Both the position numbers and the translations under genes were made by a program. A DNA stretch of 64,000 bases from Rhodospirillaceae bacterium MC! (lineage in GTDB: Bacteria > Pseudomonadota > Alphaproteobacteria > MC1). Each line of letters opens with the position of its first letter. The stretch's first letter is position 1. The stretch spans positions 62,001-126,000 of the forward strand of contig NQOV01000012.1 of NCBI GenBank assembly GCA_002632265.1. Reading direction: 5' to 3'. The notes beneath the pieces were generated by a model that had not been told where the DNA came from, ran no database searches, and saw only the letters and a list, made by a program, of their open reading frames with translations. Shown piece after piece: positions 5,631 through 63,951 of this stretch.

Positions 5631-5671
5631 ATTAAATAACTCTATTTAGTAACTTTATTGAGTTATTTAAT
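5631..5671 (+). terminator. Hairpin after GH2 gene
   Basis: ATTAAATAACTC and GAGTTATTTAAT are perfect 12-bp arms with a 17-nt loop, 18 bp past the stop codon. There is no clean T-tract, so it may be a processing or stability hairpin rather than a classical intrinsic terminator. Confidence 0.5.
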
Positions 5672-5817
5672 CCCTAATGCTTAATAATAAGAATCCCAAT
5701 AAGTGCGAATTTTTTCTGGATATTGATCCATAAAAGATTGCTCTTATTGGGCATTTTTATGCATTCTAAATATATTGGCGATATTTTTATACAGTCAATT
5801 CAAAATTTTATATGTAG

Positions 5818-5839
5818 TGATTAGCTAAAATACTAATGA
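5818..5839. promoter_or_regulatory. Probable operator site 2
   Basis: TGATTAG, an 8-nt spacer, then CTAATGA: the same half-sites and spacing as at 1884-1911. It lies 16 bp upstream of a TTGACT hexamer, an activator-like position. Confidence 0.5.
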
Positions 5840-6068
5840 AAAATGCAAAAATGATTGACTTGAAGATAAAAATTACTTATCGTTATTATAAATAAGATTT
5901 TAAAATTTTCTATATATGATACACTAGCAAAAATCAAGCTAATTTTGTAAAAATAATCAACAAACTATCAATATATATATTAATAAATTATCGTATATGT
6001 AAAATTTGTATATTCATACTATAAACATTAAATTGTTTTTTATAGTTAATTCAGTATCTTATAGATAG

Positions 6069-6090
6069 TGATTAGTTAAAGTACTAATTA
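6069..6090. promoter_or_regulatory. Probable operator site 3
   Basis: TGATTAG, an 8-nt spacer, then CTAATTA, 251 bp from site 2 and about 16 bp upstream of a TTGCTT-16-TATACT promoter at 6106-6133. Flanking sequence on both sides is also shared with site 2. Confidence 0.5.
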
Positions 6091-6286
6091 CAAACATATG
6101 AATATTTGCTTGTATCGTAAAAATTATTTATACTAAAAACAAGTAGAGGCTTAATATATTGATAGATAAAACGAATCAATAAATTATATGAGTTTCTATT
6201 TTACATAAAACATATTAAAATTAAAAAACGTATTAAAATTAAATATACATTATTCAATCACAAAATTAAAGAAAGGTTGAAAAGTT

Positions 6287-8665: not shown

Positions 8666-8732
8666 AAAGTAATCTATAAGCATAAATAAGCAAAATAAAT
8701 TTCAACAAATAATACAAAAAAAAGAGGATAAA

Positions 8733-10319: not shown

Positions 10320-10347
10320 AGGGGATAGTTAACGATCTTTATTAATT

Positions 10348-10392
10348 TTGGAATGATAGTGATATATGAGATATCGCTATCATTCCAATTTT
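10348..10392 (+). terminator. Intrinsic terminator after MFS transporter
   Basis: Arms of 18 nt (10348-10365 and 10371-10388) pair at all positions with one G-U, around a 5-nt loop, followed by a short T-run. It isolates the transporter transcript from xylA. Confidence 0.85.
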
Positions 10393-10407
10393 GTTATGGG
10401 AATGTTT

Positions 10408-10424
10408 TGATGTGTTTTACATCA
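10408..10424. promoter_or_regulatory. Xylose-regulon palindrome, xylA copy
   Basis: TGATGTGTTTTACATCA is a 17-bp palindrome (TGATGT-N5-ACATCA) 200 bp upstream of xylA. Matching copies precede xylB and the GH3 gene. The nearby LacI-type regulator is the likely binder. Confidence 0.75.
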
Positions 10425-10623
10425 GATTTGTAAGAAATGTGCTACGATTATTCTTGATAGTTATGTGAAATAGTTGTATTATTAATATATGAATTACAAA
10501 TAAAAAAAGTAATTCAACGATAAAGGGGGTGGGAAAAATAACGCACTCAAGCATATTTTTTTCGCCCTGCAATTTATTTATCAATTAATTAACTAACTAA
10601 ATAAACAAAATAGGATATTAAAC

Positions 10624-11961
10624 ATGACATTCTCAAAACATTTTAAAGATCTTTTTAAAGACGTTCCAGAAATTAGCTATAAAGGAGTAGATTCTAAAGA
10701 TCCGCTTTCTTTCCGTTATTATAATCCAGATCAAAAAGTTGGCGATAAAACCATGGCCGAGCATATGCGTTTCGCCATTTGTTATTGGCATACTTTGAAT
10801 TGGTCAGGAAATGATATGTTTGGATCGGAAATTTTTTCTCATCCGTGGTTATCAAATGATATTTCCGATATTTTCGAAAAAGCCGAATTAAAAGCAGATC
10901 ATATTTTCCAAATGGCACAAATGATGAAAATCCCTTTCTATGCTTGGCATGATCGTGATGTAATTGCTGAAGGCGATACACCAAAGGAATCAGTGGAAAG
11001 ATTAGTGAAATTTTCCGATTATCTGTTGAAAAAGCAAGAAGAAACAGGCGTGAAATTATTATGGGGAACTGCTAACGCTTTTTCAAACAAACGCTATTCG
11101 GCAGGTGCTGGATCGAACCCTAATCCTGAAGTATTTGCTTTTGCAGCGTCGCAAGTTCGTACGGCTATGGAAGTTACTCATAAACTTGGTGGCGATAATT
11201 ACGTCCTTTGGGGTGGTCGTGAGGGCTATGATACGCTATTAAATACGAATATCGCTCAAGAACAAGATCAATTGGGTAAATTTATGAGCTTGGTTGTGGA
11301 ACATAAGCATAAAATCGGCTTTAAAGGCGATATCCTAATTGAACCAAAACCAAAAGAACCAACAAAACATCAATATGATTTCGATGTAGCTACGGTTTAT
11401 GGTTTCTTAAAGAAATACGGCTTGGAAAAAGAAATAAAAGTAAATATTGAAACCAATCACGCCATTTTAGCCGGCCATACCATGGAACATGAAATCGCCA
11501 TGGCTGACGCTCTGGACATCTTCGGCAGTATCGATATTAACGCAGGCGATTACCTTTTAGGTTGGGATACTGATCAATTTCCTACCGATGATCTAGACAT
11601 GACAAAAATGATGTATTACATCTTAAAAGCTGGTGGTCTTAAAAAAGGTGGTCTTAACTTTGACGCTAAATTAAGACGTCAGTCATGCGATGTTAAAGAT
11701 TATCTATACGCCCATGTGGCAGGTATGGACGCAGGGGCTCACGGCCTACTTTCTGCTCATGCTCTGCTTAAGGATAAAGTTCTTGATAATTTCATCAGTG
11801 AGCGTTATAAAGGCTGGCAATCTGGCTTCGGTAAAGATATCCTTGGTGGTAAATTATCCCTTGCTGATATTGCTGATAAAGTAGAGAATGAAAACATCAA
11901 TCCGCAACCTGTAAGCGGTCGTCAAGAGATGTTAGAAGGCATGCTAAATAGATATCTATAG
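10624..11961 (+). CDS. xylA: Xylose isomerase
   Basis: Converts D-xylose to D-xylulose in the cytoplasm. At 445 residues it is a class II isomerase. His109 and Asp112 in FYAWHDRDV are the ring-opening pair, and IEPKPKEPTKHQYD, NIETNHAILAGHT and GSIDINAGDYLLGWDTDQFP supply the metal ligands. It has its own leader of 304 bp with a terminator from the preceding gene, the xyl palindrome and a GGTGGGAAAAAT hairpin-like sequence near 10526. The start ATG is preceded by TAGGA. The LacI-type regulator follows on the other strand, ending 20 bp past the xylA stop. Confidence 0.97.
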   Translation: MTFSKHFKDLFKDVPEISYKGVDSKDPLSFRYYNPDQKVGDKTMAEHMRFAICYWHTLNWSGNDMFGSEIFSHPWLSNDISDIFEKAELKADHIFQMAQMMKIPFYAWHDRDVIAEGDTPKESVERLVKFSDYLLKKQEETGVKLLWGTANAFSNKRYSAGAGSNPNPEVFAFAASQVRTAMEVTHKLGGDNYVLWGGREGYDTLLNTNIAQEQDQLGKFMSLVVEHKHKIGFKGDILIEPKPKEPTKHQYDFDVATVYGFLKKYGLEKEIKVNIETNHAILAGHTMEHEIAMADALDIFGSIDINAGDYLLGWDTDQFPTDDLDMTKMMYYILKAGGLKKGGLNFDAKLRRQSCDVKDYLYAHVAGMDAGAHGLLSAHALLKDKVLDNFISERYKGWQSGFGKDILGGKLSLADIADKVENENINPQPVSGRQEMLEGMLNRYL

Positions 11962-11980
11962 GGCGTGCAAAAATCCTAGG

Positions 11981-12988
11981 TTATTTTATGGGAACATTCG
12001 CATCTAAATGTATACGAATGTTTCCTAAAATGCTAGTCGTTGCTAGAAATGGGGTTACGTCATCGAAGTATTCGAATAATGTTTGAGCGTAAAATTTAAC
12101 TGGCTGGGATAGGGTGTAATCCAATCCCTTAAGAGAAAATAATTTACGAGTTATCGGCGTTATTTCATGAGAAATAAAGCATATGTTACTGGGATCTATA
12201 TCCAAGGATTTTATAACATTATAGGACGCTCCCAATTCTGCACCTGTGTTATATATGCCGATGATATCTGGATACGTCTTTAAGATAGCAGAGATTTTTT
12301 CTTCCATGGAATTAATATCATTATCGCATTCAAGAGCAGGTAGAATTTCTAAATTTTTGTAGGGTTTAAGATAATCTACCATGCCAAGAAACCTTAATTT
12401 ATGATCCTCTTGAAGAGATGAAGAGATAAGCCCAACGATTTTACCACGCTTTAAAGCACAATGTTTCGCAAATAAATTGCCTGCACATTGGCCCGATATG
12501 GTATTATCTACGCCGATAAAATGATCACGTTGAGATTGTGGAATGTCGGAAATCAGGGTTACAACGATTTTTTCTTGTGCTTTTAGCTTGTTAACTAAAT
12601 CCGTAAAGAAATCGTTATTCGAGCAGAATAAAACAACGTTTTTATACTTATTTAGTAAGCGAGATTTGATTATAATATCATTTTGATCATTCTCCTTGTA
12701 TTTGATAATCTTTAGAGAAATATTTTTAAAGTTAATATTGCTATTTGTGGTTTTTATGGCACTAAGAAGAGTGTCTAAAAAAGGATTGTCCATTCTAGGA
12801 ATGAATAAAGCTATGACTTTTATGGGTTTTAGATTGGTACTGGCAAGATTGTTTAATATTCTTAAGGCCTCATAAACCTTTTCTTTAGTTTCTTTTTTGA
12901 CTCCTGATCGCTTATTTAAAACTCGATCAATGCTAGCGGTACTAACTCCTGATAATTCGGAAATGTCTTTTATGGTAGTACGATACAT
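11981..12988 (-). CDS. LacI-family transcriptional regulator, probable xylose repressor
   Basis: The N-terminal TIKDISELSGVSTASIDRVLNKRSGVKKET is the LacI-type DNA-binding domain with its hinge helix, and residues 60-335 form a periplasmic-binding-protein-like sensor domain. The VSxASIDRVLNKR form is typical of the subgroup with a sugar-binding PBP domain. It lies between xylA and xylB and is transcribed away from xylB. A TGATGT-N5-ACATCA palindrome in the shared 267-bp spacer would allow it to control both itself and xylB. Assignment to xylose is inferred from context. Confidence 0.85.
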   Translation of the reverse strand: MYRTTIKDISELSGVSTASIDRVLNKRSGVKKETKEKVYEALRILNNLASTNLKPIKVIALFIPRMDNPFLDTLLSAIKTTNSNINFKNISLKIIKYKENDQNDIIIKSRLLNKYKNVVLFCSNNDFFTDLVNKLKAQEKIVVTLISDIPQSQRDHFIGVDNTISGQCAGNLFAKHCALKRGKIVGLISSSLQEDHKLRFLGMVDYLKPYKNLEILPALECDNDINSMEEKISAILKTYPDIIGIYNTGAELGASYNVIKSLDIDPSNICFISHEITPITRKLFSLKGLDYTLSQPVKFYAQTLFEYFDDVTPFLATTSILGNIRIHLDANVPIK

Positions 12989-13092
12989 TTGAGTATATGC
13001 CTTTAGTTTAATTTAATTTAGTTGAATTATGAATGAAAGTTTGTATATTATATCACGCCATAGTAAAATATACAAGCAATTTCTCATGATTC

Positions 13093-13109
13093 TGATGTGA
13101 AAAACATCA
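13093..13109. promoter_or_regulatory. Xylose-regulon palindrome, divergent xylB/regulator copy
   Basis: TGATGTGAAAAACATCA has the same arms as the other two copies and differs only in the spacer. It is 104 bp upstream of the regulator start and 147 bp upstream of xylB, consistent with autoregulation. Confidence 0.75.
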
Positions 13110-13255
13110 AAAATAAATTATATCAATAACTTTGCTGTTGCATAAAATTACTTATTTGTTTATACTTAAAAGAGTAAGTTATAGGCAAAATTTAATTGCA
13201 AAGCAAAGTAAAATACAACAAAACAATCACATAAATCACATAAAAGGAGATAAAT

Positions 13256-14761
13256 ATGTATATTGGTATTGATCTAGGAACATCTAGTGTAAAAAGTATA
13301 TTAATTGATGAAAATCAAAGTATTATAGATAGCTCATCGGTTGAGTTTAGCATTTCTCGTCCTTATCCGCTGTGGTCGGAGCAAGATCCGAAAGAATGGT
13401 GGGCAGGGGTTTTGCAGACCTTAAAAAGCTTAAGTGCTAACAATCCTAAGGAAATGAAAAACCTTAAGGCCATCGGTATTTCTGGACAAATGCACGGAGC
13501 GGTATTGCTTGATAATCATGATGATGTTTTACGTCCTGCCATTTTGTGGAATGACGGACGCTGTCAAGCAGAATGTGAAGAATTGGAAAAATTAGTGCCT
13601 GATTTACGTGAGATCACATCGAATATCGCCATGGCAGGATTTACCGCCCCTAAATTATTGTGGGTGAAAAAATTCGAAAATGATATCTTTAAAAAGGTCA
13701 ATAAAGTATTGCTACCTAAGGATTATATACGTTTAAAACTCACAGGCAAATACGTGGCGGAAATGTCTGACGCCAGCGGAACTTTATGGCTAGATAATAA
13801 CAAACGTGATTGGAGCGATAAAATCTTAAATGCCCAAGGTTTATCAAGAGATCACATGCCGAAACTCATTGAGGGATCGGAAAATTCTGGAACATTATTA
13901 AAAGAATTCCAAGATCTTTTAGGATGTGAAAATAATGTTATCATCGCAGGCGGTGGCGGAGATAACGCTTCAACTGCCGTAGGAATGGGGATTGTTAATG
14001 ATGATGATACTTTAATATCCATTGGCACATCAGGAGTTATATTTAATGTTTCAAATAAAGTTAATGCTCATCCAGAATTGACCGTACATTCATTTTGTCA
14101 TGCTTTACCGAAGAAATGGCATACCATGGTTGTTAATTTGGCGGTTTCTTCGGCTATTAATTGGGGAGTGGAAGTCCTTGCCAATGATAGAGATCCGAAT
14201 AATATAATTAAAAATCTGCTTTCTTTGGGCGAGCAAGTAAAGGCACATATCCCTTTAACTCCCAAAGGATTTGAGGAAAATAACAACGGTCTACCCATTT
14301 TCTTACCCTATCTTTCAGGCGAGCGAACCCCTTGTAATGATATGAACGCAAAAGGAATGATGACAGGTCTAACCCTAGAAACTACCACCGCTAAAATGAT
14401 GTATGCAGTTCTTGAAGGTGTGGCCTTTAACTTCCGTCAGTCTCTTGAATGCTTACAACAAGCAGGAGCAAAAATCAGCCATATTTTCGCATCAGGTGGC
14501 GGAACTCAAAACCTTTATTTAATGGATTTAATCGCCACATCCATGAATGTAGAATTACACATTACCGAAGAATCAGCCGTCGGCGGAGCTTTAGGAGCTG
14601 GACGTCTAGCCATGATCTCAACAGGCAAAAACATTGCTGATGTTACCCACAAACCCAAAGTAACCAACATCATTAAACCTCTTAAGAACATTCAAACCAT
14701 TCTTGATACACGATATAATACTTATCAAAAAATCTATCCTAATGTGAAAAATTTATACTAA
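13256..14761 (+). CDS. xylB: Xylulokinase
   Basis: Phosphorylates D-xylulose to xylulose 5-phosphate for the pentose phosphate pathway. The 501 residues show the FGGY kinase pattern: IGIDLGTSSVKSILID at the N-terminus, GISGQMHGAVLLD and RPAILWNDGR for substrate, and the catalytic Asp236 in AGGGGDNAS. The C-terminal domain has FASGGGTQNLYLMDLIA and GGALGAGRLA for ATP binding. A good AAAAGGAG site precedes the ATG. No xylA is fused or overlapping; the genes are separated by the regulator. Confidence 0.96.
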   Translation: MYIGIDLGTSSVKSILIDENQSIIDSSSVEFSISRPYPLWSEQDPKEWWAGVLQTLKSLSANNPKEMKNLKAIGISGQMHGAVLLDNHDDVLRPAILWNDGRCQAECEELEKLVPDLREITSNIAMAGFTAPKLLWVKKFENDIFKKVNKVLLPKDYIRLKLTGKYVAEMSDASGTLWLDNNKRDWSDKILNAQGLSRDHMPKLIEGSENSGTLLKEFQDLLGCENNVIIAGGGGDNASTAVGMGIVNDDDTLISIGTSGVIFNVSNKVNAHPELTVHSFCHALPKKWHTMVVNLAVSSAINWGVEVLANDRDPNNIIKNLLSLGEQVKAHIPLTPKGFEENNNGLPIFLPYLSGERTPCNDMNAKGMMTGLTLETTTAKMMYAVLEGVAFNFRQSLECLQQAGAKISHIFASGGGTQNLYLMDLIATSMNVELHITEESAVGGALGAGRLAMISTGKNIADVTHKPKVTNIIKPLKNIQTILDTRYNTYQKIYPNVKNLY

Positions 14762-14841
14762 ATTGTGATGAAAAAGATCGTAATATAATCATATAACAGA
14801 ATGCGAATCTAAGAAAAAAGTATTTTTTTGCTATATTCATA

Positions 14842-14871
14842 AAAAAAGTGATGTGTTTTACATCACTTTTT
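14842..14871. promoter_or_regulatory. Xylose-regulon palindrome, GH3 copy, doubling as a terminator-like hairpin
   Basis: The core TGATGTGTTTTACATCA at 14849-14865 is identical to the xylA copy. Here the arms extend to 13 bp (AAAAAAGTGATGT / ACATCACTTTTTT) and end in a T-run, so the same bases can form an intrinsic terminator for xylB. The core overlaps TTTACA at 14857-14862, which is 18 bp from TATACT at 14881-14886. Confidence 0.75.
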
Positions 14872-14886
14872 TATTTTTAGTATACT
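14857..14886 (+). promoter_or_regulatory. Probable sigma-70 promoter of GH3 gene
   Basis: TTTACA and TATACT are separated by 18 bp, and the -35 element lies inside the palindrome, as expected for steric repression. A second TTGACA at 14894-14899 may serve an alternative start. Confidence 0.5.
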
Positions 14887-14999
14887 ATTAATATTGACAT
14901 TAGGTCAAGAGTATATTAATATAATAATATATTACTACACTAACTAGTAAAATCACAAAAATTACAAAATTTAAATTTAATAATAAAAGGATTCAACAT

Positions 15000-17144
15000 A
15001 TGAAAAAACATTTAGATAAAACCCTACCCATTGATGAACGCATAGATGATCTAGTATCGCAAATGACAGTAAGGGAAAAGCTTTCACAGATGTCTAATGT
15101 TTCCATAGGTTTGGAGCATTTGGATATTAAGCCATATAATTGGTGGAGTGAGGCTCTGCACGGTGTGGCGAGAGCTGGTAAAAGTACGGTATTTCCGCAA
15201 GTTATCGGTATGGCTGCCTCTTTTAATAGGGATTTAATCTATCAAGTATATGACGCTATTTCCGATGAAGCGAGAGCAAAATATAATCGATATATGAAAA
15301 TTAACGGCTACGCTAAGGAGTATCTAGGAATAACCTATTGGACTCCTAACATCAATATATTTAGAGATCCACGCTGGGGTAGGGGGCAAGAAACCTATGG
15401 CGAAGATCCATTCCTAACTCAAGAGCTAGCAACGCAGGTAGTTAAAGGCTTACAGGGGAATTATCATTGTAATGATTATCTAGAGCATCACAAAACAGGG
15501 AAGTTCATGAAAACTTCGGCTTGTGCCAAACATTACGCCGTACACAGTGGTCCAGAATATTCCAGACACGAATTCAACGCCAAACCAAATCAAAAAGACT
15601 TCAACGAAACATACATGCCAGCATTTGAAAGATTATGTAAAGAAGGTGTTGAATCATTCATGACATGTTACAATCGAGTATACGACGAACCAGGAGCATC
15701 AAGCAAGCTTTTACTTGAGACAAAACTAAGGGGCGAATGGAATTTCAAAGGTCATGTGGTTTCCGATTGTTCGGCAATTAATGACATCTATAAAAATCAT
15801 AAAATAGTAGATACTCCATACGAGGCCGTTGCTTTAGCTATCAATGGTGGTTGTGATCTCAACTGTGGATTCATGTATGAAACCCATGGCTATGAAGCCT
15901 ATGAAAAGGGTCTGATATCAGAAGAAACCATAGAAAAAAATCTCAAAAGATTATTAAGAACTAAATTCAAACTGGGCTTAATGGGTACGGATTTAGAAGA
16001 TGTTCCTTATAATCATATTTCTTACGATGTGGTAGGATCGCAAAAACATTTGGATTTATCGCATAAAATTGCTCTTGAATCAATCGTTATGCTTAAAAAT
16101 GACGGAATTCTCCCATTAACATACGAAAAAACTCCTGATGTAATGCTAACTGGGCCATTCATTGCCGATATCGATGTGCTACTAGGAAATTATAATGGTA
16201 TGCCAACAAGAATCATCTCACTACTCGACGGTATCGCCGATGTTGCCGATGAAAAACACATCCGTACAGATTATAGAAAAGGAGCTTTGCCATACGGTAG
16301 AACAATCAACAAACATGATTGGGCCATGATGGAAGGGGAAAAACATACCTGTTCCGTGATCGCCGTGGGTTATTCTTCGCTACTTGAGGGGGAAGAAGGC
16401 GACTCCATTGCCATGGATAGTGGCGACCGTCATCAAATCGAATTACCTGAAGAACAATCAAGCTATCTAGATAGATATTTTGAACGCATTGATCATCCTG
16501 TTGTATTGGTGGTTCTTGGCGGAAGTCCTATAGCTTTAGAGAAATATAAGGATAAAGCGGCAGCAATTATCTTCGCATGGTATCCAGGTCAAGAGGGCGG
16601 AAAAGCCATAGCCGATGTACTATTTGGTAACTATTCCCCAAGTGGTCGCTTGCCTGTTACTTTCCCGAGTGCAACCAAGGATATCCCAGAATATGAAGAT
16701 TACAATATGAAAGGTAGAACATATAAATACATCGAAAAAACTCCAGATTATCCCTTTGGTTATGGTTTATCATTTGCAGATTTTAGTTATGATAAGTTAT
16801 CAGTAAAAGAAGTAAATAAGGATACTGTTAAGATTAATATCACAGTAACAAATACGAGCAATATGCAATCCAGCGAAGTAACGCAAGTATACTTTACAGA
16901 TAATAAGGACGTGAAAGGTAAACCACATTTTAAGCTTTGCGAATTCGCTAAAAATGAATTTAAGGGAAAACAAAGCAAAGAACTATCATTTGAAATACAA
17001 CGCCAACACCTAACATATTTTGACGATAATGGCGAACTGATTACATCAAACGATATAACTATCTTTTGCGGTGGCTCTCAACCAGATAGCCATAGTGAAA
17101 AACTAACAGGGAAAAAAGTCGCAAGTATAAAAGTAACACTTTAA
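15000..17144 (+). CDS. Glycoside hydrolase family 3, beta-xylosidase type
   Basis: Probably releases xylose from xylo-oligosaccharides. The 714 residues comprise a GH3 TIM-barrel domain (about 1-330), an alpha/beta sandwich (about 350-600) and a fibronectin III-like C-terminal domain (about 630-710). The nucleophile is Asp256 in GHVVSDCSAI; the SDCxAI form is typical of the xylosidase branch. WTPNINIFRDPRWGRGQETYGEDP and AKHYAVHSGPE are the substrate-binding motifs. No signal peptide is seen, so action on imported oligosaccharides in the cytoplasm is expected. The operator upstream links it to xylA and xylB. Confidence 0.92.
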   Translation: MKKHLDKTLPIDERIDDLVSQMTVREKLSQMSNVSIGLEHLDIKPYNWWSEALHGVARAGKSTVFPQVIGMAASFNRDLIYQVYDAISDEARAKYNRYMKINGYAKEYLGITYWTPNINIFRDPRWGRGQETYGEDPFLTQELATQVVKGLQGNYHCNDYLEHHKTGKFMKTSACAKHYAVHSGPEYSRHEFNAKPNQKDFNETYMPAFERLCKEGVESFMTCYNRVYDEPGASSKLLLETKLRGEWNFKGHVVSDCSAINDIYKNHKIVDTPYEAVALAINGGCDLNCGFMYETHGYEAYEKGLISEETIEKNLKRLLRTKFKLGLMGTDLEDVPYNHISYDVVGSQKHLDLSHKIALESIVMLKNDGILPLTYEKTPDVMLTGPFIADIDVLLGNYNGMPTRIISLLDGIADVADEKHIRTDYRKGALPYGRTINKHDWAMMEGEKHTCSVIAVGYSSLLEGEEGDSIAMDSGDRHQIELPEEQSSYLDRYFERIDHPVVLVVLGGSPIALEKYKDKAAAIIFAWYPGQEGGKAIADVLFGNYSPSGRLPVTFPSATKDIPEYEDYNMKGRTYKYIEKTPDYPFGYGLSFADFSYDKLSVKEVNKDTVKINITVTNTSNMQSSEVTQVYFTDNKDVKGKPHFKLCEFAKNEFKGKQSKELSFEIQRQHLTYFDDNGELITSNDITIFCGGSQPDSHSEKLTGKKVASIKVTL

Positions 17145-17152
17145 AAAAATGC

Positions 17153-17181
17153 TTGACAAGTGGGGAATTTTATTCTATAAT
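17153..17181 (+). promoter_or_regulatory. Consensus sigma-70 promoter of ssrA
   Basis: A perfect TTGACA (17153-17158) and a perfect TATAAT (17176-17181) with 17-bp spacing start 9 bp after the GH3 stop codon. Transcription should begin near 17188. Confidence 0.9.
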
Positions 17182-17187
17182 ATAAGT

Positions 17188-17500
17188 GTCTTGTAAAAGG
17201 CTATAGTGCTAGAGAACTTAATGGAATAAGCAGACTGGACTGGGGGGCAGTACCGCACATCTCCACCAATTATATATTATACTTAATTGTATATATTTAT
17301 TTATCTTATTTGGGGATGAAACAGGATCGACAGATGTAGTAAAGATTTGTGTTTGCACTCGGCGAGTTACCACTGATATCGGTACAAACTTTAAATATAA
17401 ATGCTAACGATAATCGTTTTGCTCCAGTGGCTGTTGCTGCCTAGTCGGTAACAAAAACTAATTATATAAATTCCCTTTCCTTTGAGTTGGAAAGGGTGGG
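17188..17500 (+). ncRNA. ssrA: Two-piece (circularly permuted) tmRNA
   Basis: Rescues stalled ribosomes and tags the nascent protein. As in other alphaproteobacteria the gene is permuted. The acceptor piece comes first and ends with CATCTCCACCA at 17258-17268, after a T-arm-like GGGGGGCAGTACCGC. An AT-rich spacer follows, then the coding piece starts with GGGGATG at 17312. GGGGATG pairs with CATCTCC over 7 bp (one G-U), rebuilding the tRNA-like acceptor stem. GGATCGACAG follows, then the pseudoknot region and the tag frame 17403-17444. It encodes ANDNRFAPVAVAA, to which the charged alanine is added. Outer ends are approximate. Confidence 0.93.
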
Positions 17501-17504
17501 GTTT

Positions 17505-17542
17505 ATGAAGTACCTATCAACAGAAACTTCATACTTTTTTTT
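17505..17542 (+). terminator. Intrinsic terminator of ssrA
   Basis: ATGAAGT and ACTTCAT pair around a 14-nt loop and are followed by eight T residues. A separate stronger hairpin, CCCTTTCC/GGAAAGGG, lies just upstream at about 17473-17496. Confidence 0.75.
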
Positions 17543-55139: not shown

Positions 55140-58004
55140 ATGAGTGATGAGATTCCAGAAAATAATTCCTATGAAGAAGTAATCCAACCGATTACAATTG
55201 AAAAGGAAATGCAACAAAGCTACTTAGATTATGCCATGAGTGTAATTGTATCTCGTGCATTGCCCGATGTTCGAGACGGCTTAAAGCCTGTACATCGTCG
55301 CATACTCTTCGCCATGAAAGAAGGGGGCTATGATTATAACCGTCCATTCCGTAAATCTGCCCGTATTGTAGGGGATGTAATGGGTAAATATCACCCACAT
55401 GGTGATATGGCCATTTATCATGCCATGGTACGTCTTGCTCAAAACTTCATGATGCGTTTACCAATGATCGACGGTCAAGGGAACTTCGGTTCTATTGATG
55501 GTGATTCGGCGGCGGCTATGCGTTATACGGAAGCACGTATGGCACGTTCGGCTCATGATCTCATCGCTGATATCGATAAAGATACGGTTGATTTTACTCC
55601 CAACTACGATGAAACCATATGGGAGCCTGTGGTATTACCTGCCACCTATCCGAATCTTCTAGTGAACGGAGCAGGGGGAATCGCCGTTGGTATGGCCACT
55701 AATATCCCACCGCATAACTTGGGCGAAGTAATCGATGCCTGTTGTGCTTTGGTGGATAATCCTGATCTAACCGTAGAAGAAATTAACGAACAATACGTGT
55801 TCGGTCCAGATTTCCCCACAGGTGGGATCATTCTAGGTAGAGGCGGAATTAAAAGAGCCTTTTATACTGGTCGTGGCTCAATTGTTACTCGTGGTAAGGC
55901 GGAAATCGAAGAGATAAGAAAAGATCGCCAAGCTATTATCATCACAGAAATTCCCTACCAAGTGCTAAAATCACGTATGATCCAACAAATTGTAGAACAG
56001 GTTCGTGATAAACGTATCGAAGGTATCAGCGATATTCGAGATGAATCCGATAGAAATGGTATGCGTGTAGTTGTGGAAATTAAACGTGATCATCATCCTG
56101 AAGTAGTCTTAAACCAGCTATATAAATTCTCGGCTCTGCAAAGTAGTTTTGCGGTTAACTCGCTAGCCCTAAATAAGGGGCGTCCGCAACAAATGAACTT
56201 ACGTGATATTCTAGTGGCATTTGTTGAATTCCGTGAAGAAGTTATCACAAGGAGAACCATTTTTGAGCTTAAAAAAGCTCGTGAAAAAGCCCATGTCTTA
56301 GCAGGTTTAGCCATTGCGGTCGTGAATGTGGATGACGTTATTAAGATAGTAAGAGAAGCACCTAATCCCGTAGAGGCAAAGGATCTACTATTGGAAAAAT
56401 CATGGGACGCTCGTGAGATCGAACCAATGATAGCTCTATTGGATGAGCCTGATCGTCAAGTGGAAAATGGTCAATATAAACTATCGGATATTCAAGCGAA
56501 AGCCATATTAGATCTAAGATTACACAGATTAACAGGGATGGAACGTGATAAAATTGGCGATGATCTGAAAGTTATTGCCGATGAGATCGCCGAATATTTA
56601 TCTATTCTTTCATCTCGTGATAAATTATTGGGAATCTTAAAGGATGAGCTTGCCATTGCAAAAGAACGCTTTGCCACTCCACGCCGTACCCAAATTTCTG
56701 ATTTAGAATTCTCTCAAGATATTGAAGATCTTATCCAAAAAGAAGAAATGGTAGTAACAACCACAAATACAGGCTATATTAAACGTGTGCCACTTTCAAC
56801 CTATCAAGCTCAACGCCGTGGCGGTAAAGGTCGCCGTGGGATGACAACTAAAGAAGAAGATCTAGTTACTGATGTGTTTATCGCTAATACTCATCAACCG
56901 ATTTTATTCTTTACGGATCGTGGTATCGTTTATAAAATGAAAACCTATAAGCTACCGCTTTCCACCCCAACCGCTAAGGGTAAGGCTTTAGTTAATCTGT
57001 TACCATTACAAGAGAATGAAAAAGTTACATCCGTGCTAATTTTATCGGAAAATGAAGAGGATTGGGAAGGTAAATTCTTAATGTTCGTTACCGCATCTGG
57101 TACGGTTAGACGAAATAAAATTTCCGATTTCAAAGATGTAAGAACAAATGGTAAAATAGCCATGAAGCTAAACGATGGCGAATCTCTAATTAGTGTAAGA
57201 ATTTGTACCGAAGAAAACGACATCTTACTTTCTGCACAAAAAGGGATGTGTATCAGATTCCCAGTTTCTTCTATTCGTGTATTCCAAAGCCGTAATAGTT
57301 TGGGCGTGCGTGGGATTCGCTTAAATGACGGCGATCAAGTGGTAAGTATGAGCATACTAAATCACGTGAAAGTTGAAACCGAACAACGCCAAGCCTTTGT
57401 TAAATATTCTAAAGCCTTACGTCGTGGCGAACCGATAGAAAAACCAAGCAATATTTCCGATGAGAAATTAGCCGAATTATTGGAAAAAGAACAATTCCTA
57501 TTAACTGTTTGCGAAAATGGTTATGGTAAACGTACATCGATCTATGAATATCGCACGGCCGCTCGTGGTGGTAAAGGTGTTGGCAGTATCGAAGTGAGCG
57601 AGCGTAATGGGAATGTTGTTCAAAGTTTGATCATTGAAGAAGATAACGATATCGTGATCGTTTCCAACGGTGGGCAAATTATTCGTTGTCGTATTGGCGA
57701 TGTTCGTATCGCAGGGCGTAAAACTCAAGGTGTTACGATCTTCAAGATGAACAAAAACGAAAAAGTCATCTCATTAACCTTAGTGGCTAAGGAAGACGAA
57801 GAAGACATGGAAAACATTGACGAAACCATAGACGGCGGTGGCGATAGTGATAGCGGTGGCAACATTCCTAATACTAGCATGGCGGAAACTGTCGGCGAAA
57901 GCGGTGGGGAAGATGTGGGCGAAAGCGAATCAGAGAACTCACAGGGGCAAACTGATTTATTATCTGACGATAACATAAACAATAACAATAATAACGAGAA
58001 CTAG
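55140..58004 (+). CDS. gyrA: DNA gyrase subunit A
   Basis: Breaks and rejoins DNA to introduce negative supercoils. The catalytic Tyr is in [10 protein letters not shown] (about residue 129), and [11 protein letters not shown] (near 555) is the GyrA box that separates gyrase from topoisomerase IV. Six C-terminal beta-pinwheel repeats follow. The tail after residue 890 is Gly/Ser/Asp/Asn-rich and disordered. In the quinolone region [13 protein letters not shown], Met90 and His94 stand at the positions of E. coli Ser83 and Asp87. Both are changes expected to weaken fluoroquinolone binding. Confidence 0.97.
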
Positions 58005-58013
58005 AATCATACA

Positions 58014-58048
58014 ACAAAAAGGATTATAAAATTTATAATCCTTTTTGT
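58014..58048 (+). terminator. Terminator after gyrA
   Basis: ACAAAAAGGATTATAAA and TTTATAATCCTTTTTGT are 17-bp arms separated by one base; the tip will open to form the loop. Confidence 0.88.
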
Positions 58049-58097
58049 GATAGTATGGTAAAAAAATTCCACAAGAAGAGAGATAAAAAGGTTTAAC

Positions 58098-58637
58098 ATG
58101 GAACATTCAATAGGCATATATGCAGGAACATTTGACCCCATAACTAAAGGACACTTAAATATTGTTCAACGCTCTCTTAAAATTTGCGATGAAGTTATTA
58201 TCGCCGTAGCGAAAAATAATGCCAAAGGCCCGCTTTTAACCATTGATGAGCGTATTAATATAACTAATGACGCTGTCCAAGAAGTATTTTCCACAAAAGA
58301 ACAAGCAAGAATTAAAATTGTCTCATTCGGCGGATTGTTGGTGGATCTTTGCCATGAATATAAAACCAAGATTGTAATTAGGGGATTGCGTGCGGTTTCT
58401 GATTTTGAATATGAGTTTCAAATATCAGGCGTAAATAAACATTTAGATGAAGAAATAGAAATGCTATATCTTATGGCCTCAACCGAATATCAATTCATAA
58501 GTTCTTCATTAATTAAGGAAATCGTTAGAATGAATGGCGATGTTAGTAAATTTATTACTAATAATGTAAAAGAGGCCTTACATAAACTTTATAAATCTTC
58601 AGCCAGTCCAACCAAGGGAAATAAAAAACATGAATAA
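58098..58637 (+). CDS. coaD: Phosphopantetheine adenylyltransferase
   Basis: Fourth enzyme of coenzyme A synthesis. IYAGTFDPITKGHLNIVQRS has the TxxH nucleotidyl-transfer motif, and VIRGLRAVSDFEYEFQ and EYQFISSSLIKEIVRMNGDVSKF are the family signatures. Together with panB and panC, most of the CoA route is in this window. It overlaps the next gene by 8 bp. Confidence 0.96.
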   Translation: MEHSIGIYAGTFDPITKGHLNIVQRSLKICDEVIIAVAKNNAKGPLLTIDERINITNDAVQEVFSTKEQARIKIVSFGGLLVDLCHEYKTKIVIRGLRAVSDFEYEFQISGVNKHLDEEIEMLYLMASTEYQFISSSLIKEIVRMNGDVSKFITNNVKEALHKLYKSSASPTKGNKKHE

Positions 58638-59529
58638 GCCTAATAATCACGAAAAGCACATAAATTTAGTTTTACTTCTATGGGTGTTTGGTGCGTTTAT
58701 AACCAGTGCCGTATTTAGTGCGATTATCCACGAAGTAACAAAGGGATTACCACCGCTTGAAGTTTCATTTTTTAGAAATCTTTTTGCCTTAATTGTGATG
58801 TTACCATTATTATTAAGATACGGTTTGAAATCCATTAAAACAAAAAAAATGCCCCTGCATATTATCCGCTCTTTAGTGGGTGGATTGGCCATGGGTTTAT
58901 GGTTTATTTGCTTGAAATATATAGATTTATCAACTGCCACCATGATCATGTTTACCGCTCCCATTCTAGCGGTGTTTTTAGCTTCAATCTTTTTAAAGGA
59001 AAAAATTACCAAATATACAATAATCGCTCTTGTTTTGGGCTTTGGTGGCGTAGCTATCATTAAGAATCCCATGAATATGCAACTTACTAAATTTGATATA
59101 GTTCTTTTTATTACAGTTGTGTTATTTGCCATAACTCCGTTGATTATCCGTAAGTTAAGCCTTACCGAGTCATCATTTTCCATTATGTTTTACTTTGGTT
59201 TATATATGAGTATCTTTTCATTTTTTACTCTCTTTTATAAATGGCAAAACCCAAACCAAATCCAATGGATTGAGCTGATAGCCTTAGGATTTATCGGTAC
59301 AATATACCAATTCGTCAGAAACGAGGCCATTGCTAAAACTTCGGTTACCATTGTTTCATCCTTTCAATTTACCGAACCATTATTCGGTACGCTGATCGGC
59401 TCGGTAGTTTTTAATGAACGCATAGCGATTAATTTCATTATTGGTGGTGCTTTAGTTATTATTGCTGGTATGATTTCCGCCTACGGTCTACGACGAAAAC
59501 GAAAAACCCCAGCAACAGCTTCCAAATAA
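58630..59529 (+). CDS. DMT-superfamily transporter (EamA domains)
   Basis: Ten predicted helices as two EamA repeats, 299 residues. LPPLEVSFFRNLFALIVMLPLL and the second-half SSFQFTEPLFGTLIGSVVFNE are typical. Relatives export metabolites or import nucleotides and SAM; none can be chosen here. It overlaps coaD and lies 43 bp before rlmH, so it probably shares their transcript. Confidence 0.88.
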   Translation: MNKPNNHEKHINLVLLLWVFGAFITSAVFSAIIHEVTKGLPPLEVSFFRNLFALIVMLPLLLRYGLKSIKTKKMPLHIIRSLVGGLAMGLWFICLKYIDLSTATMIMFTAPILAVFLASIFLKEKITKYTIIALVLGFGGVAIIKNPMNMQLTKFDIVLFITVVLFAITPLIIRKLSLTESSFSIMFYFGLYMSIFSFFTLFYKWQNPNQIQWIELIALGFIGTIYQFVRNEAIAKTSVTIVSSFQFTEPLFGTLIGSVVFNERIAINFIIGGALVIIAGMISAYGLRRKRKTPATASK

Positions 59530-59572
59530 AATATAATACACTGCAATATAATATAATCTTAAGAATACTCAC

Positions 59573-60028
59573 ATGAAAATAACTCTAATAGCCATGGGAA
59601 CTATAAAAAAAAGCGTTGATTTAGATTTGTTTAATCTATACGCAAAACGCTTGCCTTGGAAGATCAATGTTATCGAAAAAGAAGTAAAAAAGCCCCAAGA
59701 ATCCATTTTAAAACAACAAGAAGCCGAAATTATCCTAGGAAATATCCCAAACGGCAGTTACGTTATTGCCCTTGATGAACGTGGCAAACAATTCACAAGC
59801 CTAGAATTTTCTACCAAAATCCAAGACTGGCAAAATAAAGGCTATAGCCATATGTGCTTTATCATCGGCGGAGCTTTCGGCTTAGATCAACAAGTGCGAG
59901 ACAAAGCCAACCTTTTACTAAGCCTAAGTGCCATGACATTCCCCCACATGCTAGTACGTGGCTTGATCTGTGAACAACTCTACCGCTCATACTCTATCTT
60001 AAATAATCATCCTTATCATAAGGAATAA
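59573..60028 (+). CDS. rlmH: 23S rRNA (pseudouridine1915-N3)-methyltransferase
   Basis: SPOUT-class enzyme acting on helix 69. YVIALDERGKQFTSLEFS, FIIGGAFGLDQQV, LSLSAMTFPHMLVRGLICEQLYRSYSILNNHPYHKE match the family to the last residue; these segments are given in pieces around the trefoil knot. The 3' 26 bases of the gene belong to a 28-bp sequence repeated at 62743-62770, next to a diverged remnant of another rlmH end. Confidence 0.96.
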   Translation: MKITLIAMGTIKKSVDLDLFNLYAKRLPWKINVIEKEVKKPQESILKQQEAEIILGNIPNGSYVIALDERGKQFTSLEFSTKIQDWQNKGYSHMCFIIGGAFGLDQQVRDKANLLLSLSAMTFPHMLVRGLICEQLYRSYSILNNHPYHKE

Positions 60029-60030
60029 TT
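60003..60030 (+). repeat. Direct repeat at 3' end of rlmH (attL-like)
   Basis: A 28-bp sequence covering the last eight codons, the stop and two following bases of rlmH. It matches 62743-62770 at 27 of 28 positions and contains TATCATAAGGAATAA. It resembles the rlmH-terminal attachment site of SCC elements in position. Confidence 0.75.
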
Positions 60031-60080
60031 ATTTTAAGACAGAATATGGATATGAGTAATATTGTCATTCCATATTTAAA

Positions 60081-60151
60081 CATAACATATTATAACATCA
60101 CATCATAAAGATAATATACTTGTTTATGATGTGATGTTATATTATGTTATG
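60081..60151. repeat. Large palindrome just after rlmH
   Basis: Arms of 29 nt (60081-60109 and 60123-60151) match at 28 positions, around a 13-nt loop. TGATGTGATGTTAT is the inner part of one arm. No T-run follows. Confidence 0.92.
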
Positions 60152-60406
60152 TGTGCTGGCCGAAGTTAAATCTAATATAAATACACCTATTATTATTTAA
60201 AGTATGATTTAACAAAATGACTGTTTGTAGATACATCATTAAATTATTATAATATATTTAAAGTGGTAGTATATATATTTACATTAGAATTATGTTAGGC
60301 CTGTAAATATAAACAATAGAAATGATATATAATTACTTTTTTTATTTGTAGGAGAAGATATAATCTGGAATAACAATAATATATGAGTCATAATGAATGA
60401 GTAAGA

Positions 60407-60448
60407 AGTAATAAGTAATAAGTAATAAGTAATAAGTAATAAGTAATA
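60407..60448. repeat. Heptanucleotide tandem repeat (AGTAATA)
   Basis: Six perfect consecutive AGTAATA units. Confidence 0.93.
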
Positions 60449-60531
60449 ACATATGAGTAATAATTGTGGCTATAAAGCTTCATAGGGTTTGTTTTGTTTT
60501 TCTTGTCTTTTCTTTTCTGTTCTGTTCTGTT

Positions 60532-60598
60532 CTATTTCTCTATTCTTTCTTTTACTGGCCTAATATTTAGGCCAGCAAAAGAAAGAATAGAGAAATAG
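60532..60598. repeat. Very large palindrome with TGGCC core, copy B
   Basis: Arms of 32 nt (60532-60563 and 60567-60598) match at 31 positions around a 3-nt loop. The outer arms are pyrimidine- and purine-rich strands; the core resembles that at 50251-50285. Confidence 0.93.
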
Positions 60599-60642
60599 AA
60601 AAAACAAAAATAATAATAATAAGCTGGTAAACAGAAAGATAA

Positions 60643-60764
60643 ATGAAATGTACTACTGTTATGTAGAATCCTGCTGTGTGTATTAGTGTTGCGTAGAATT
60701 CTGATGAAATGTACTACTGTTATGTAGAATCTTGCTGTGTGTAATACTGTTGAGTGTAGTACTT
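60643..60764. repeat. Tandem duplication of a 61-bp unit
   Basis: ATGAAATGTACTACTGTTAT recurs at 60643 and 60704, and most of the following 40 bases are also shared with substitutions in the second half. Not in a supported reading frame. Confidence 0.85.
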
Positions 60765-60973
60765 ATGTATGTAATATGGATGTATTTAATCCTGATGTGT
60801 GCAATAGCTAGGTGTTTGGGGGAGAAAAGGGGGTAAGGAGGTGGGGAGTTTTTATTTAGGATGTGGGATATAAGTATACAAGATAATATAAAAGTGTATA
60901 TCTTTTTTCTTTGGGAAAACTGGGGGTTGTAGCTAAATAAATCAAGCAATGATCCAAGTAAAATAAAAAATAC

Positions 60974-61002
60974 TTGACATGTAAGAAATTAAAATATATA
61001 CT
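60974..61002 (+). promoter_or_regulatory. Promoter of the GH29 gene
   Basis: TTGACA (60974-60979) and TATACT (60997-61002) with 17-bp spacing; start expected near 61009, leaving a 130-nt leader. Confidence 0.75.
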
Positions 61003-61006
61003 TAAT

Positions 61007-61037
61007 TATACGGTCATAGGAATAAAGTGATCGTATA
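61007..61037. promoter_or_regulatory. Operator-like inverted repeat of the GH29 gene
   Basis: TATACGGTCA and TGATCGTATA match at 9 of 10 positions around an 11-nt spacer. It spans the expected transcription start, a classic repressor position. It differs from the two other operator types in the window. Confidence 0.5.
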
Positions 61038-61139
61038 ACTAGAAAAATCTTTTATAATAAAGGTTCATAAAGTATACATGTGAGCAAAATATACCACATA
61101 TTAAATCGCATATAATTATTTAAGTGAAAGAAAAATCAA

Positions 61140-62654
61140 ATGACTAGAGAAGAAACACAAAAAAAAGTAAGTGAATATTTAACAAAAATTGATGAAGTAA
61201 TAGCAAAAGGTAAATTTAAAGATAATTGGGAATCTTTAAGTGCTTATGAAGAGCCGAAATGGTATAAAAATGCTAAATTCGGAATTTTCATTCATTGGGG
61301 GGTTTATTCTGTGCCAGCGGCTATTCATAGTGATTGGTATGCGAGAAATATGTATGTTCAAGGATCAGAAGAGTACGAACATCACGTAAAAACCTACGGA
61401 GATCCTAAGGATTTTCCCTATGAGAATTTTATTCCCATGTTCAAGGCGGAAAAGTTTGACCCTAAAGAATGGATACAACTTTTTAAAGACGCAGGGGCAA
61501 AATATTTCATGCCTGTAGCCGAACATCATGACGGCTTTCAAATGTATGAGAGCGAACTTTCAAAATGGAATGCCGTAGAAATGGGTCCTAAGAAAAATAT
61601 TTTACAAATGCTAAAAGAAGAGGGCGAAAAAGAGGGGTTAGTATTCTGTGCTTCAAGTCATAGAGCGGAAAATTATTGGTTTTTTGCTCCAGGTAGAACC
61701 TTTGATTCAGGCATTCAAGATATAGAATATCAAGAACCATACGGTGCAGGAGATCCCGCATTTACTGGAGATCAGACCAAACAAACCAAAAGCATATATG
61801 GGCCTCAAGCAACTAAAGAGCATTTAGATAATTGGCTAGCAAGAACTTGTGAGATTATTGATAAATATCAACCTAAAGTTTTATGGTTCGATTGGTGGAT
61901 TCATAATCTAGGATTTAAACCATATTTAAAGAAATTAGCTGCATATTACTATAATAGAGCCATAGAATGGGGCGAAGAAGTGGCAATCAACTATAAAGTA
62001 GACGCTTTTGCTCGTGGAACTGCCATATTTGATGTGGAACGTGGACAACTTTCCGAAATTAGACCACAATTATGGCAAACTGATACCGCAGTAGCTAAAA
62101 ATTCATGGGGATATATTGAAGGCAATGATTATAAAACACCAGAATCATTAGTCTCGGATATGCTTGATATTGTTAGTAAAAACGGATGTTTACTTCTAAA
62201 TATCGGCCCTAAAGCAGATGGTACTATCCCAGATGAAGACCAAAAAATTCTTCGCTCTATTGGTGCGTGGTTAAAAGTCAATGGCGAGGGCGTTTATGAT
62301 ACTACCTATTGGTCAACCTACGGCGAAGGACCTACCGAAATTGTTGAGGGGACTTTCTGCGATGTGGCACGAGATGAATATACCGCAGAAGACATAAGAT
62401 TCACCTTTAAAGCTCCTTACATTTACGCTTTTGCCTTAAAATGGCCCAAAACTAATAAGGTTAAGATCAAAAAATTAGCCTCATATTTGGGAAAAAATGG
62501 TAATAAATATTTCAAAGGACACATTGAAAATATCGAAATATTAGGCTTTAATAATAAATTCACTTATTCGCAAGATGATGACGCTTTAAATATCCAAGTT
62601 GAGGGCGATTTAAATACTACATATCCAGTATGTTTTAAAATTAAAATCGATTAA
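61140..62654 (+). CDS. Glycoside hydrolase family 29, alpha-L-fucosidase
   Basis: Removes alpha-L-fucose from host or plant glycans. The 504 residues begin, after a short helix, with the GH29 signature WYKNAKFGIFIHWGVYSVPA, then MPVAEHHDGFQMYES and the likely nucleophile Asp251 in VLWFDWWIHN. The barrel ends with LLLNIGPKADGTIPDED, and a beta-sandwich follows (about 410-504). No signal peptide is seen, so it acts on imported fucosides. No fucose catabolic genes are in the window. It lies alone between the two rlmH tails. Confidence 0.93.
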   Translation: MTREETQKKVSEYLTKIDEVIAKGKFKDNWESLSAYEEPKWYKNAKFGIFIHWGVYSVPAAIHSDWYARNMYVQGSEEYEHHVKTYGDPKDFPYENFIPMFKAEKFDPKEWIQLFKDAGAKYFMPVAEHHDGFQMYESELSKWNAVEMGPKKNILQMLKEEGEKEGLVFCASSHRAENYWFFAPGRTFDSGIQDIEYQEPYGAGDPAFTGDQTKQTKSIYGPQATKEHLDNWLARTCEIIDKYQPKVLWFDWWIHNLGFKPYLKKLAAYYYNRAIEWGEEVAINYKVDAFARGTAIFDVERGQLSEIRPQLWQTDTAVAKNSWGYIEGNDYKTPESLVSDMLDIVSKNGCLLLNIGPKADGTIPDEDQKILRSIGAWLKVNGEGVYDTTYWSTYGEGPTEIVEGTFCDVARDEYTAEDIRFTFKAPYIYAFALKWPKTNKVKIKKLASYLGKNGNKYFKGHIENIEILGFNNKFTYSQDDDALNIQVEGDLNTTYPVCFKIKID

Positions 62655-62681
62655 AGGAAATCAACTAACAGATCACGACAA

Positions 62682-62768
62682 AAAGACCATTTTATACACG
62701 GTCTAATCTATGAACAACTGTATAGAACGTATTCCATTTTACATAATCATCCCTATCATAAGGAATAA
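62682..62768 (+). pseudogene. Remnant of a second rlmH 3' end
   Basis: Read in one frame, 62700-62768 encodes GLIYEQLYRTYSILHNHPYH then KE and a stop, matching the true RlmH C-terminus at 19 of 22 residues; the six codons before (KDHFIH) fit more loosely. Most base differences are synonymous, so this came from a functional but different rlmH, not a recent copy. There is no start or upstream body. It begins 28 bp after the fucosidase stop. Confidence 0.85.
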
Positions 62769-62770
62769 TT
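62743..62770 (+). repeat. Direct repeat at end of rlmH remnant (attR-like)
   Basis: Matches 60003-60030 at 27 of 28 bases. The identity here is higher than in the preceding 45 bp of the remnant, as expected if this segment was the crossover site. Confidence 0.75.
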
Positions 62771-62924
62771 GTTAACTTTATATATTACTTGACTTTATTA
62801 TTAATGAATGTTACTATATAAATCAGTTTATAATTTTCTACTTAGTTAAAATCTTACGATATAGAGTAGATAAATTATGTATTGAATCTATAACAACAAT
62901 ATATAAAAAAAATGGAGATATATT

Positions 62925-63500
62925 ATGATAGAACAACTAAGACCAGTAAGAATAGGTTTATTCTTTGCGGTATTAACAATATTACTAGGTTACAGTTTAG
63001 GAATGATCTTTGGCGGATTCGAAGATAGTTATAAATCATATGCTAAAAATACCCTAGCAGAAAATCAAGTTGCATTCACTGCTAAAGCCACTGATACAAT
63101 GGACGCAGATACCGCCACTAAAGCCAAAATGGCTGGAGCGATGACAGCGTTTAAAAAATATTCTAAAAGAGCCCATTTACATGCTGGTGCTATTGGAACA
63201 GGTACATTGGCTATGATTATTGTCTTGTCTTTTTTTGGTAAGAACATTTTATTCTTTTCTGAAAAAATTACCTGCCTTATTAAGCTTGTTTTTTCTTTAG
63301 GATTTGGTGTTGGTGGTTTCTTCTATGGATCATATTGGACTCTTGTGGCCATTGGATGTTTAAGCAATCCTGATAAATACGCCGTGAAAGATGGCGGATT
63401 AGCAGTTCTTGCTTTCATAGGTGCAGGCCCTGTCTATCTTTGTACTTTAGGTTTAGCGGCGATTTTATTCGTTTCTATATTCTACAAACCAAAAAGCTAA
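62925..63500 (+). CDS. Membrane protein of unknown function
   Basis: A 191-residue protein with about four helices (about 10-30, 84-105, 112-135, 160-187) and a polar Ala/Thr/Asp-rich periplasmic loop (35-75). RAHLHAGAIGTGTLAMIIV has two histidines at a membrane edge, which could bind heme or metal, but I do not recognise the family. AATGGAG lies before the ATG. It is followed by a GTGAAAAAGCACTCAT repeat and a bidirectional terminator. Confidence 0.7.
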   Translation: MIEQLRPVRIGLFFAVLTILLGYSLGMIFGGFEDSYKSYAKNTLAENQVAFTAKATDTMDADTATKAKMAGAMTAFKKYSKRAHLHAGAIGTGTLAMIIVLSFFGKNILFFSEKITCLIKLVFSLGFGVGGFFYGSYWTLVAIGCLSNPDKYAVKDGGLAVLAFIGAGPVYLCTLGLAAILFVSIFYKPKS

Positions 63501-63515
63501 CTCAAGTGAATGGCT

Positions 63516-63531
63516 GTGAAAAAGCACTCAT
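63516..63531 (+). repeat. Dispersed 16-bp repeat, copy 3
   Basis: GTGAAAAAGCACTCAT, 15 bp after the membrane protein stop. The next bases (AAGTACTTTTTCCCAC) can fold back on it with a small bulge. Confidence 0.85.
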
Positions 63532-63570
63532 CCAAGTACTTTTTCCCACCCCTTTCCTTGAAAATGGCGT

Positions 63571-63610
63571 AAAAAACACTTCTAAAATTTATATTTTAGA
63601 AGTGTTTTTT
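63571..63610. terminator. Bidirectional terminator
   Basis: Perfect 18-bp arms (63571-63588 and 63593-63610) with a 4-nt loop and runs of A and T at either end, between two convergent genes; the HxlR stop codon touches its edge. Confidence 0.95.
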
Positions 63611-63951
63611 TATTCGGATAATGCTTTTAATGAGTGCATTATGGTTAGTAGTCTTTTGCCTTTGTCGGTTATTTCGTATTCGACGGCACATGGTTTATAG
63701 CTTATTACATTTCTATTGATAAGATCGTCGTCAACCATTTCTTTTAGTTTATTGGTTACGGCGGTTGTTGTTGCTTCTTTTACTAGGCGGTTGATAGTAT
63801 TAAAGCGAATGTTTTCATTACCTAAATGGATTAAAATAGAAAGTTTCCATTTACCACTTATCATTTTTAATGAGCGTTCCATTAATAATAATTCTTGGCA
63901 TATGGGCTTTAGCGAATCATATTCAGATTCTGTGATGTCTGATTCTGGCAT
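63610..63951 (-). CDS. HxlR-family transcriptional regulator
   Basis: A 113-residue winged helix protein: MISGKWKLSILIHLGNENIRFNTINRLVKEATTTAVTNKLKEMVDDDLI is the HxlR DNA-binding core, followed by the wing VEYEITDKGKRLL. The Cys in PICQELLL sits where redox- or aldehyde-sensing members keep theirs. AAGGAG precedes the ATG on the reverse strand. Its target, perhaps a gene to the right, is outside the window. Confidence 0.9.
   Translation of the reverse strand: MPESDITESEYDSLKPICQELLLMERSLKMISGKWKLSILIHLGNENIRFNTINRLVKEATTTAVTNKLKEMVDDDLINRNVISYKPCAVEYEITDKGKRLLTIMHSLKALSE

Follow-up and report, generated by a model that had tools for sequence, protein, structure and literature searches.

In staphylococci, mobile elements of the staphylococcal cassette chromosome (SCC) type are found at the 3′ end of rlmH, the gene for the 23S rRNA pseudouridine methyltransferase, and a second rlmH-like end lies downstream of the intact gene. 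According to the available part of one source (PMC6222049), rlmH-end cassette elements also occur outside staphylococci, as the Enterococcus cassette chromosome (ECC). Reported ECC elements measure 21-78 kb and have attachment site (att) repeats of about 50 bp, a remnant is known in which both att sites persist, and the att core conserved between SCC and ECC is TATCATAA (PMC6222049, same part). Displaced gene ends can also arise in another way. For the type VI secretion system (T6SS) immunity arrays of Vibrio cholerae, the accessible text of PMC5361080 proposes a model in which effector 3′ ends are displaced via homology-facilitated illegitimate recombination. Here we describe an rlmH locus that resembles both systems, in a stretch of 64,000 nt (the window) on contig C2 of the assembly of Rhodospirillaceae bacterium MC!, an alphaproteobacterium. 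A complete rlmH is followed, 2.7 kb downstream, by a detached and diverged rlmH tail, with a glycoside hydrolase gene of family GH29 in between. We suggest, with a probability of about 0.55, that the tail (62695-62768) derives from a second rlmH of a related lineage and stayed behind as a relic when alleles recombined.

The detached rlmH tail

The intact rlmH (59573-60028, forward strand) encodes 151 aa with a Pfam SPOUT_MTase match (E 2.8e-49) and was the single full-length copy detected in a search of the assembly (2.05 Mb in 19 contigs, completeness 95.5%, contamination 0.04). An ungapped repeat comparison recovered a direct repeat of 79 nt, with one copy at the rlmH 3′ end (59955-60033) and the other at 62695-62773, both on the forward strand. 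The copies were identical at 61 of 79 positions (77%, no gaps). Within them, a 28-mer at 60003-60030 recurred at 62743-62770 with 27 of 28 bases identical, just as the earlier note on this DNA had observed. These were the only two sites in the assembly when up to 3 mismatches were allowed, and a backward control pattern gave none.

Both tblastn and the repeat comparison placed the remains of a second rlmH in the downstream copy (62695-62768, forward strand). The earlier note had described a diverged, truncated tail of 22 residues. Divergence and truncation held, since 19 of the last 22 RlmH residues matched and 11 of the 17 coding-part mismatches fell at third codon positions (4, 2 and 11 at positions 1, 2 and 3), and the length was revised to about 25 codons including the stop. 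Protein identity was 76% over 25 residues. The genome search scored this match at E 3.7e-7 and a local scan at 5e-10, a value that puts the resemblance beyond chance. The homology ended at the stop codon, as it would between any two orthologues, and continued on neither side: beyond the repeat block, identities per 20 bases were 3, 4, 10 and 8 downstream, and 4, 2 and 7 upstream.

Residues 122-129 were unmatched in the tail, and R129 was lost although it is conserved in 105 of 109 RlmH from other genomes (the comparison genomes were from the same class and wider, none from the same order as the source genome). From residue 130 onwards, all eight positions conserved in at least 80% of these 109 proteins were kept (E134, Q135, Y137, R138, L143, P147, Y148 and H149). 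The 5′ break of the tail therefore lies at about codons 127-130, and the retention of the eight conserved positions indicates that selection acted on the protein until recent times.

The tail has no start codon and is probably functionless. Its frame runs for 37 codons without ATG, GTG or TTG and is the frame of GH29, open back to the GH29 stop; as a rough estimate, sharing that frame across the stop would occur by coincidence about one time in eight. A hidden gene with the tail as one of its pieces was rejected, given the missing start codons and a GH29 homologue match that already reaches residue 503 of 504. The 5′ part of the second rlmH was not found anywhere in the assembly, and a complete second copy elsewhere in it was likewise sought without success.

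We surveyed 504 kb, a quarter of the genome (the window, two 20-kb flanks and 20 more stretches; 389 open reading frames (ORFs) of at least 100 aa), for other genes with a detached tail in nearby intergenic DNA, and none besides rlmH was found. A second intergenic match lay in a tandem-repeat tract (L176) in which the called ORF was itself repeat DNA. A third covered 17 residues, came from a different stretch and was distant from its gene. The remaining tail matches listed sat within intact ORFs, which in almost every case formed runs of related genes. In one array on contig C11 (L164, 3416-19929), 16.5 kb contained ten such genes, each encoding about 375-430 aa.

Age and source of the tail

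Codon expectations were taken from usage in 72 ORFs of the same contig, under a null in which the two copies draw codons independently. Among the 20 positions with the same residue in both tails, 11 had identical codons against 9.67 expected (P 0.34). The 12 proximal codons included 4 identical ones (4.94 expected) and the 8 distal codons 7 (4.73 expected, P 0.09). The synonymous sites between the two tails are saturated, which rules out a recent tandem duplication. Since they are saturated, conservation of the protein together with codon bias explains most of the 27/28 match, and any excess of identity beyond that is weak at best. In simulations that let the run fall anywhere, a run of 28 with no more than one mismatch had P 0.014 and an exact run of 17 had P 0.088. 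Mismatches were fewer in the 28-mer than in the rest of the repeat (1/28 vs 17/51; Fisher P 0.002, uncorrected and for a region chosen after inspection).

The tail matched the RlmH of this genome at 19 of 25 residues and the 109 other RlmH at 14 of 25 at most, while the resident RlmH's own tail reached 17 of 25 with the others. Since the tail is nearer to this RlmH than to the 109 others, the comparison points to a related lineage or an old paralogue as its source, not to a recent duplicate. In the second case, two functional rlmH genes would once have been kept within the lineage and one would have decayed to the tail, consistent with the tail being nearest this genome's RlmH and with its retained conserved residues. 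We consider this course of events distinctly unlikely. Two RlmH matches occurred in just 2 of 290 class genomes with RlmH, the source genome and G001 (no more than ten candidates were scored per genome, and short tails can escape this count). Moreover, import is a simpler account than two copies kept for a long time and one of them then lost.

An assembly artefact that joined two organisms or loci is highly improbable. The assembly is in 19 contigs and 95.5% complete, and dispersed repeats lie nearby, but copies of these repeats of at least 200 bp were at most 79% identical. The two tails share no more than 17 exact consecutive bases, which we judge too short to mislead an assembler. The codon usage of GH29 is host-like, and contamination was estimated at 0.04.

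Allele exchange and cassette integration

We suggest that two long-separated rlmH alleles met through DNA import. A segment with the intact rlmH, with or without GH29, may have been joined end to end into the C-terminal region of the other allele, through recombination that would have had an anchor at one end and been illegitimate at the opposite end. Alternatively, a complete second rlmH may have been imported and later reduced to its tail. A relic of such an exchange is supported because the piece is diverged, truncated and still in frame, as an exchange of this kind would leave it, and because the homology ends at the stop codon and no element recombinase was found. The fragment is a diverged homologue of the neighbouring intact gene, truncated at one side, as a displaced relic would be. 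Exchange between rlmH alleles had been offered in the earlier note as an alternative to integration; it fits best. The second diverged rlmH 3′ end was confirmed, and two rlmH alleles must have come together at this site. The closest likeness is to the T6SS arrays and to rhs C-terminal displacement, in which, as far as the accessible text of PMC5361080 goes, a new segment replaces the 5′ part, the old 3′ end stays downstream and no integrase is known. Unlike in those arrays, the gene here is a housekeeping methyltransferase and not a toxin locus. ComEC and DprA were matched in the genome; they would permit DNA uptake, which they do not show.

Several points weigh against exchange. ComEC and DprA were also matched in the Escherichia coli control, so that they say little about competence. 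Neither a donor nor an empty site was found among the comparison genomes, and the exchange itself was not seen. Alleles as far apart as these rarely recombine, and displacement of 3′ ends is called rare in the available part of PMC5361080 as well. In the 504-kb survey rlmH stood alone, and such events are thus not common here. Finally, the 28-bp run exceeds the expectation under saturation (P 0.014, and 0.088 for the exact 17-run), which slightly favours a shared core.

Such a core would belong to a decayed integrative element of the SCC/ECC kind that targeted the rlmH 3′ end, whose recombinase joined the 28-mers and brought in GH29, and whose recombinase gene was later lost. The position at the rlmH 3′ end is the expected one, the weak excess of identity lies in the 28-mer, and site-specific insertion would be independent of homology between hosts. 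The presence of TATCATAA, the SCC/ECC att core, in both copies and the known ECC elements outside staphylococci, including the remnant with both att sites, also agree with it, as far as the part of PMC6222049 available describes them. We nevertheless regard such an element as unlikely. Serine recombinases (PF00239) had no match in the 95.5% complete assembly, whereas 10 of 14 control genomes were positive. Tyrosine recombinases (PF00589) were represented by a single protein on another contig (C11), adjoining DUF484. This pairing we take to mark XerC, and the protein is probably XerC. No integrase gene lies between the two rlmH ends, in line with the earlier statement that no recombinase is found inside.

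The sequence TATCATAA occurs in both ends, at 60014 and 62754, but it is dictated by the Tyr-His-Lys codons, and with both strands counted the window contains it 17 times, including these two. The homology begins about 60 bp upstream of TATCATAA and halts at the stop codon, in contrast to the att repeats of about 50 bp described for ECC in the accessible part of PMC6222049. No ATGATA was present within 60 bp of either 28-mer copy, and the nearest downstream TTATGATA among the matches listed was at 62923. Across 80 rlmH loci of other genomes, the available flanking DNA (634 kb downstream) contained no second rlmH tail. The SCC-like integration hotspot proposed in the earlier note was therefore not upheld: the serine recombinase is missing, the lone tyrosine recombinase lies elsewhere, the homology stops at the stop codon, the match is largely codon usage, and the available flanks of the other 80 loci show no second tail.

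The locus shares with SCC and ECC the second rlmH-like end downstream of rlmH and, going by the same part of PMC6222049, TATCATAA in both ends. It differs in lacking a ccr serine recombinase and an ATGATA inverted-repeat partner near the ends, in spanning 2.7 kb rather than the 21-78 kb given there for ECC, and in having homology of the gene-tail type. A cassette-chromosome reading is not supported, and the locus is not classed as SCC. It is very doubtful that it is the remnant of a cassette-chromosome-like element that used the Tyr-His-Lys end of rlmH in an alphaproteobacterium and carried a sugar hydrolase.

Some islands restore the gene that they target, phage e14 in icd being an example. 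Unlike at such islands, there is no integrase in the stretch here, identity within the block peaks distally and there is no clean crossover core. At the tRNA and transfer-messenger RNA (tmRNA) islands of the Islander database, as its accessible description has it, the two ends are marked by the gene in intact form and by a 3′ fragment that has been displaced, and this is so here too.

Viral contigs contained no match to the 28-mer and no confirmed relative of RlmH or GH29. RlmH homologues were present in 27 phage and 55 plasmid records (H21-H60 among them), all less than 60% identical to this RlmH. No report of rlmH as an integration site in Proteobacteria was found in the open-licence literature, judged by titles and the openings of abstracts.

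The locus and its surroundings

The resident RlmH grouped with alphaproteobacterial sequences, the nearest being from a genome of the same class (G062, SH-aLRT 85), and the best-scoring foreign RlmH in contigs of other genomes, none of the same order, was 46% identical. The order of genes around rlmH is unusual. In the class, rsfS lay immediately 5′ of rlmH in 26 of the 29 best-matching loci, and, among all 80 named loci, in 50 (sufficient upstream DNA was available for 78). Here rlmH is preceded by an adenylyltransferase-like gene (putative coaD) and an EamA transporter, and rsfS is not upstream. The rsfS of this genome was found on contig C19 (L158), after a GTPase gene (putative obgE) and a nucleotidyltransferase gene (putative nadD); it is followed there by an ABC transporter gene, and rlmH is absent. 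Since the usual rsfS-rlmH order is broken, the rlmH locus occupies a derived location.

Synteny was compared by blastp (E 1e-12) with 1,306 ORFs that neighbour rlmH at 129 other loci, some genomes contributing two. The genes directly around rlmH here (55140 to 63951) had no match next to rlmH at any of these loci. Matches near foreign rlmH came from genes farther away: 64213 in L089, 66062 in L095, 68324 in L040 (53%, 5.5 kb upstream of rlmH) and 71762 in L048 and L050 (41%, 80 bp downstream of rlmH). Gene 24524 was matched near rlmH in 28 places, at 22-24% among the matches listed, and was read as a distant paralogue. Given the derived locus and direct neighbours that are unmatched beside rlmH in the other loci, rlmH either moved to this site or was re-acquired at it. 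We read the break within another rlmH allele as part of the same untidy history as this relocation.

Between the 28-mers lie 1.1 kb of repeat-rich DNA and a single gene, in agreement with the earlier description of repeats and GH29 only. This gene (61140-62654, forward strand) is intact and encodes 504 aa of alpha-L-fucosidase or alpha-L-galactosidase type, with the catalytic domain PF01120 at residues 18-383 (E 4.2e-101) and the C-terminal PF16757 at 414-488. Residues 12-503 aligned to an exo-alpha-L-galactosidase in the PDB (7ljj), with an alpha-L-fucosidase entry close behind, and the product is a predicted sugar hydrolase of either type. Its codon usage was host-like (rank 69 of 72). Matches at E 1e-20 were found in 8 of 384 other class genomes, the best-scoring 41% identical. 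Relatives occurred in 303 plasmid records, all below 60% identity, the best-ranked at 46%. As DNA, the region was partly matched by six plasmid records, of which the five listed fell at fucosidase genes where annotated, and by no phage record.

A sugar-use cluster was seen at 3250-17144, with GH2-like, FAD oxidoreductase-like, sugar porter, xylose isomerase, putative LacI-like regulator, xylulokinase and GH3-like genes; putative mannitol genes are also present in the region. With so many sugar genes nearby, a fucosidase fits its surroundings. We take GH29 to be an ordinary host-adapted sugar hydrolase that lies by chance beside the junction.

The intergenic stretch between rlmH and GH29 (60029-61139, 1.1 kb) has 26% GC. 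It contains two hairpins: one (60080-60152) has 30-nt arms that are 97% complementary, and the other (60507-60623) has 57-nt arms, 79% complementary, around CTGGCCTAA/TTAGGCCAG. The stretch also includes a palindromic repeat that recurs throughout the genome (copy at about 60147-60375) and a tandem array with a unit of 7 bp (60396-60449). The palindromic repeat is about 170 bp long, ends in CTGGCCTAA...TTAGGCCTG and is dispersed in intergenic DNA, often between convergent ORFs. Whole and partial copies numbered 39 and fell in 25 of the 27 loci preselected by BLAST match (copies in L002-L008 and L138-L155), and a 4-kb query around the locus had 68 genome-wide matches, itself included. A structured RNA is a weak reading of this repeat, with two-sided changes in 1 of 26 pairs and a single-copy fold at z -2.2. 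No Rfam family reached its gathering threshold in 59500-63500. Elsewhere in the window, at 17149-17535, Rfam recognised alpha_tmRNA and a partial permuted tmRNA, and ARAGORN made no call.

The locus illustrates cleanly that the conserved end of a gene can mimic an attachment site. Between functional alleles separated for a long time, protein conservation and biased codon use alone come close to producing its 27/28 match. The locus also shows an rlmH gene that has departed from the usual rsfS-rlmH order. If relatives had an empty site, Gram-negative bacteria too would have an rlmH hotspot, and if the locus were after all a cassette remnant, the rlmH hotspot would extend past Gram-positive bacteria.

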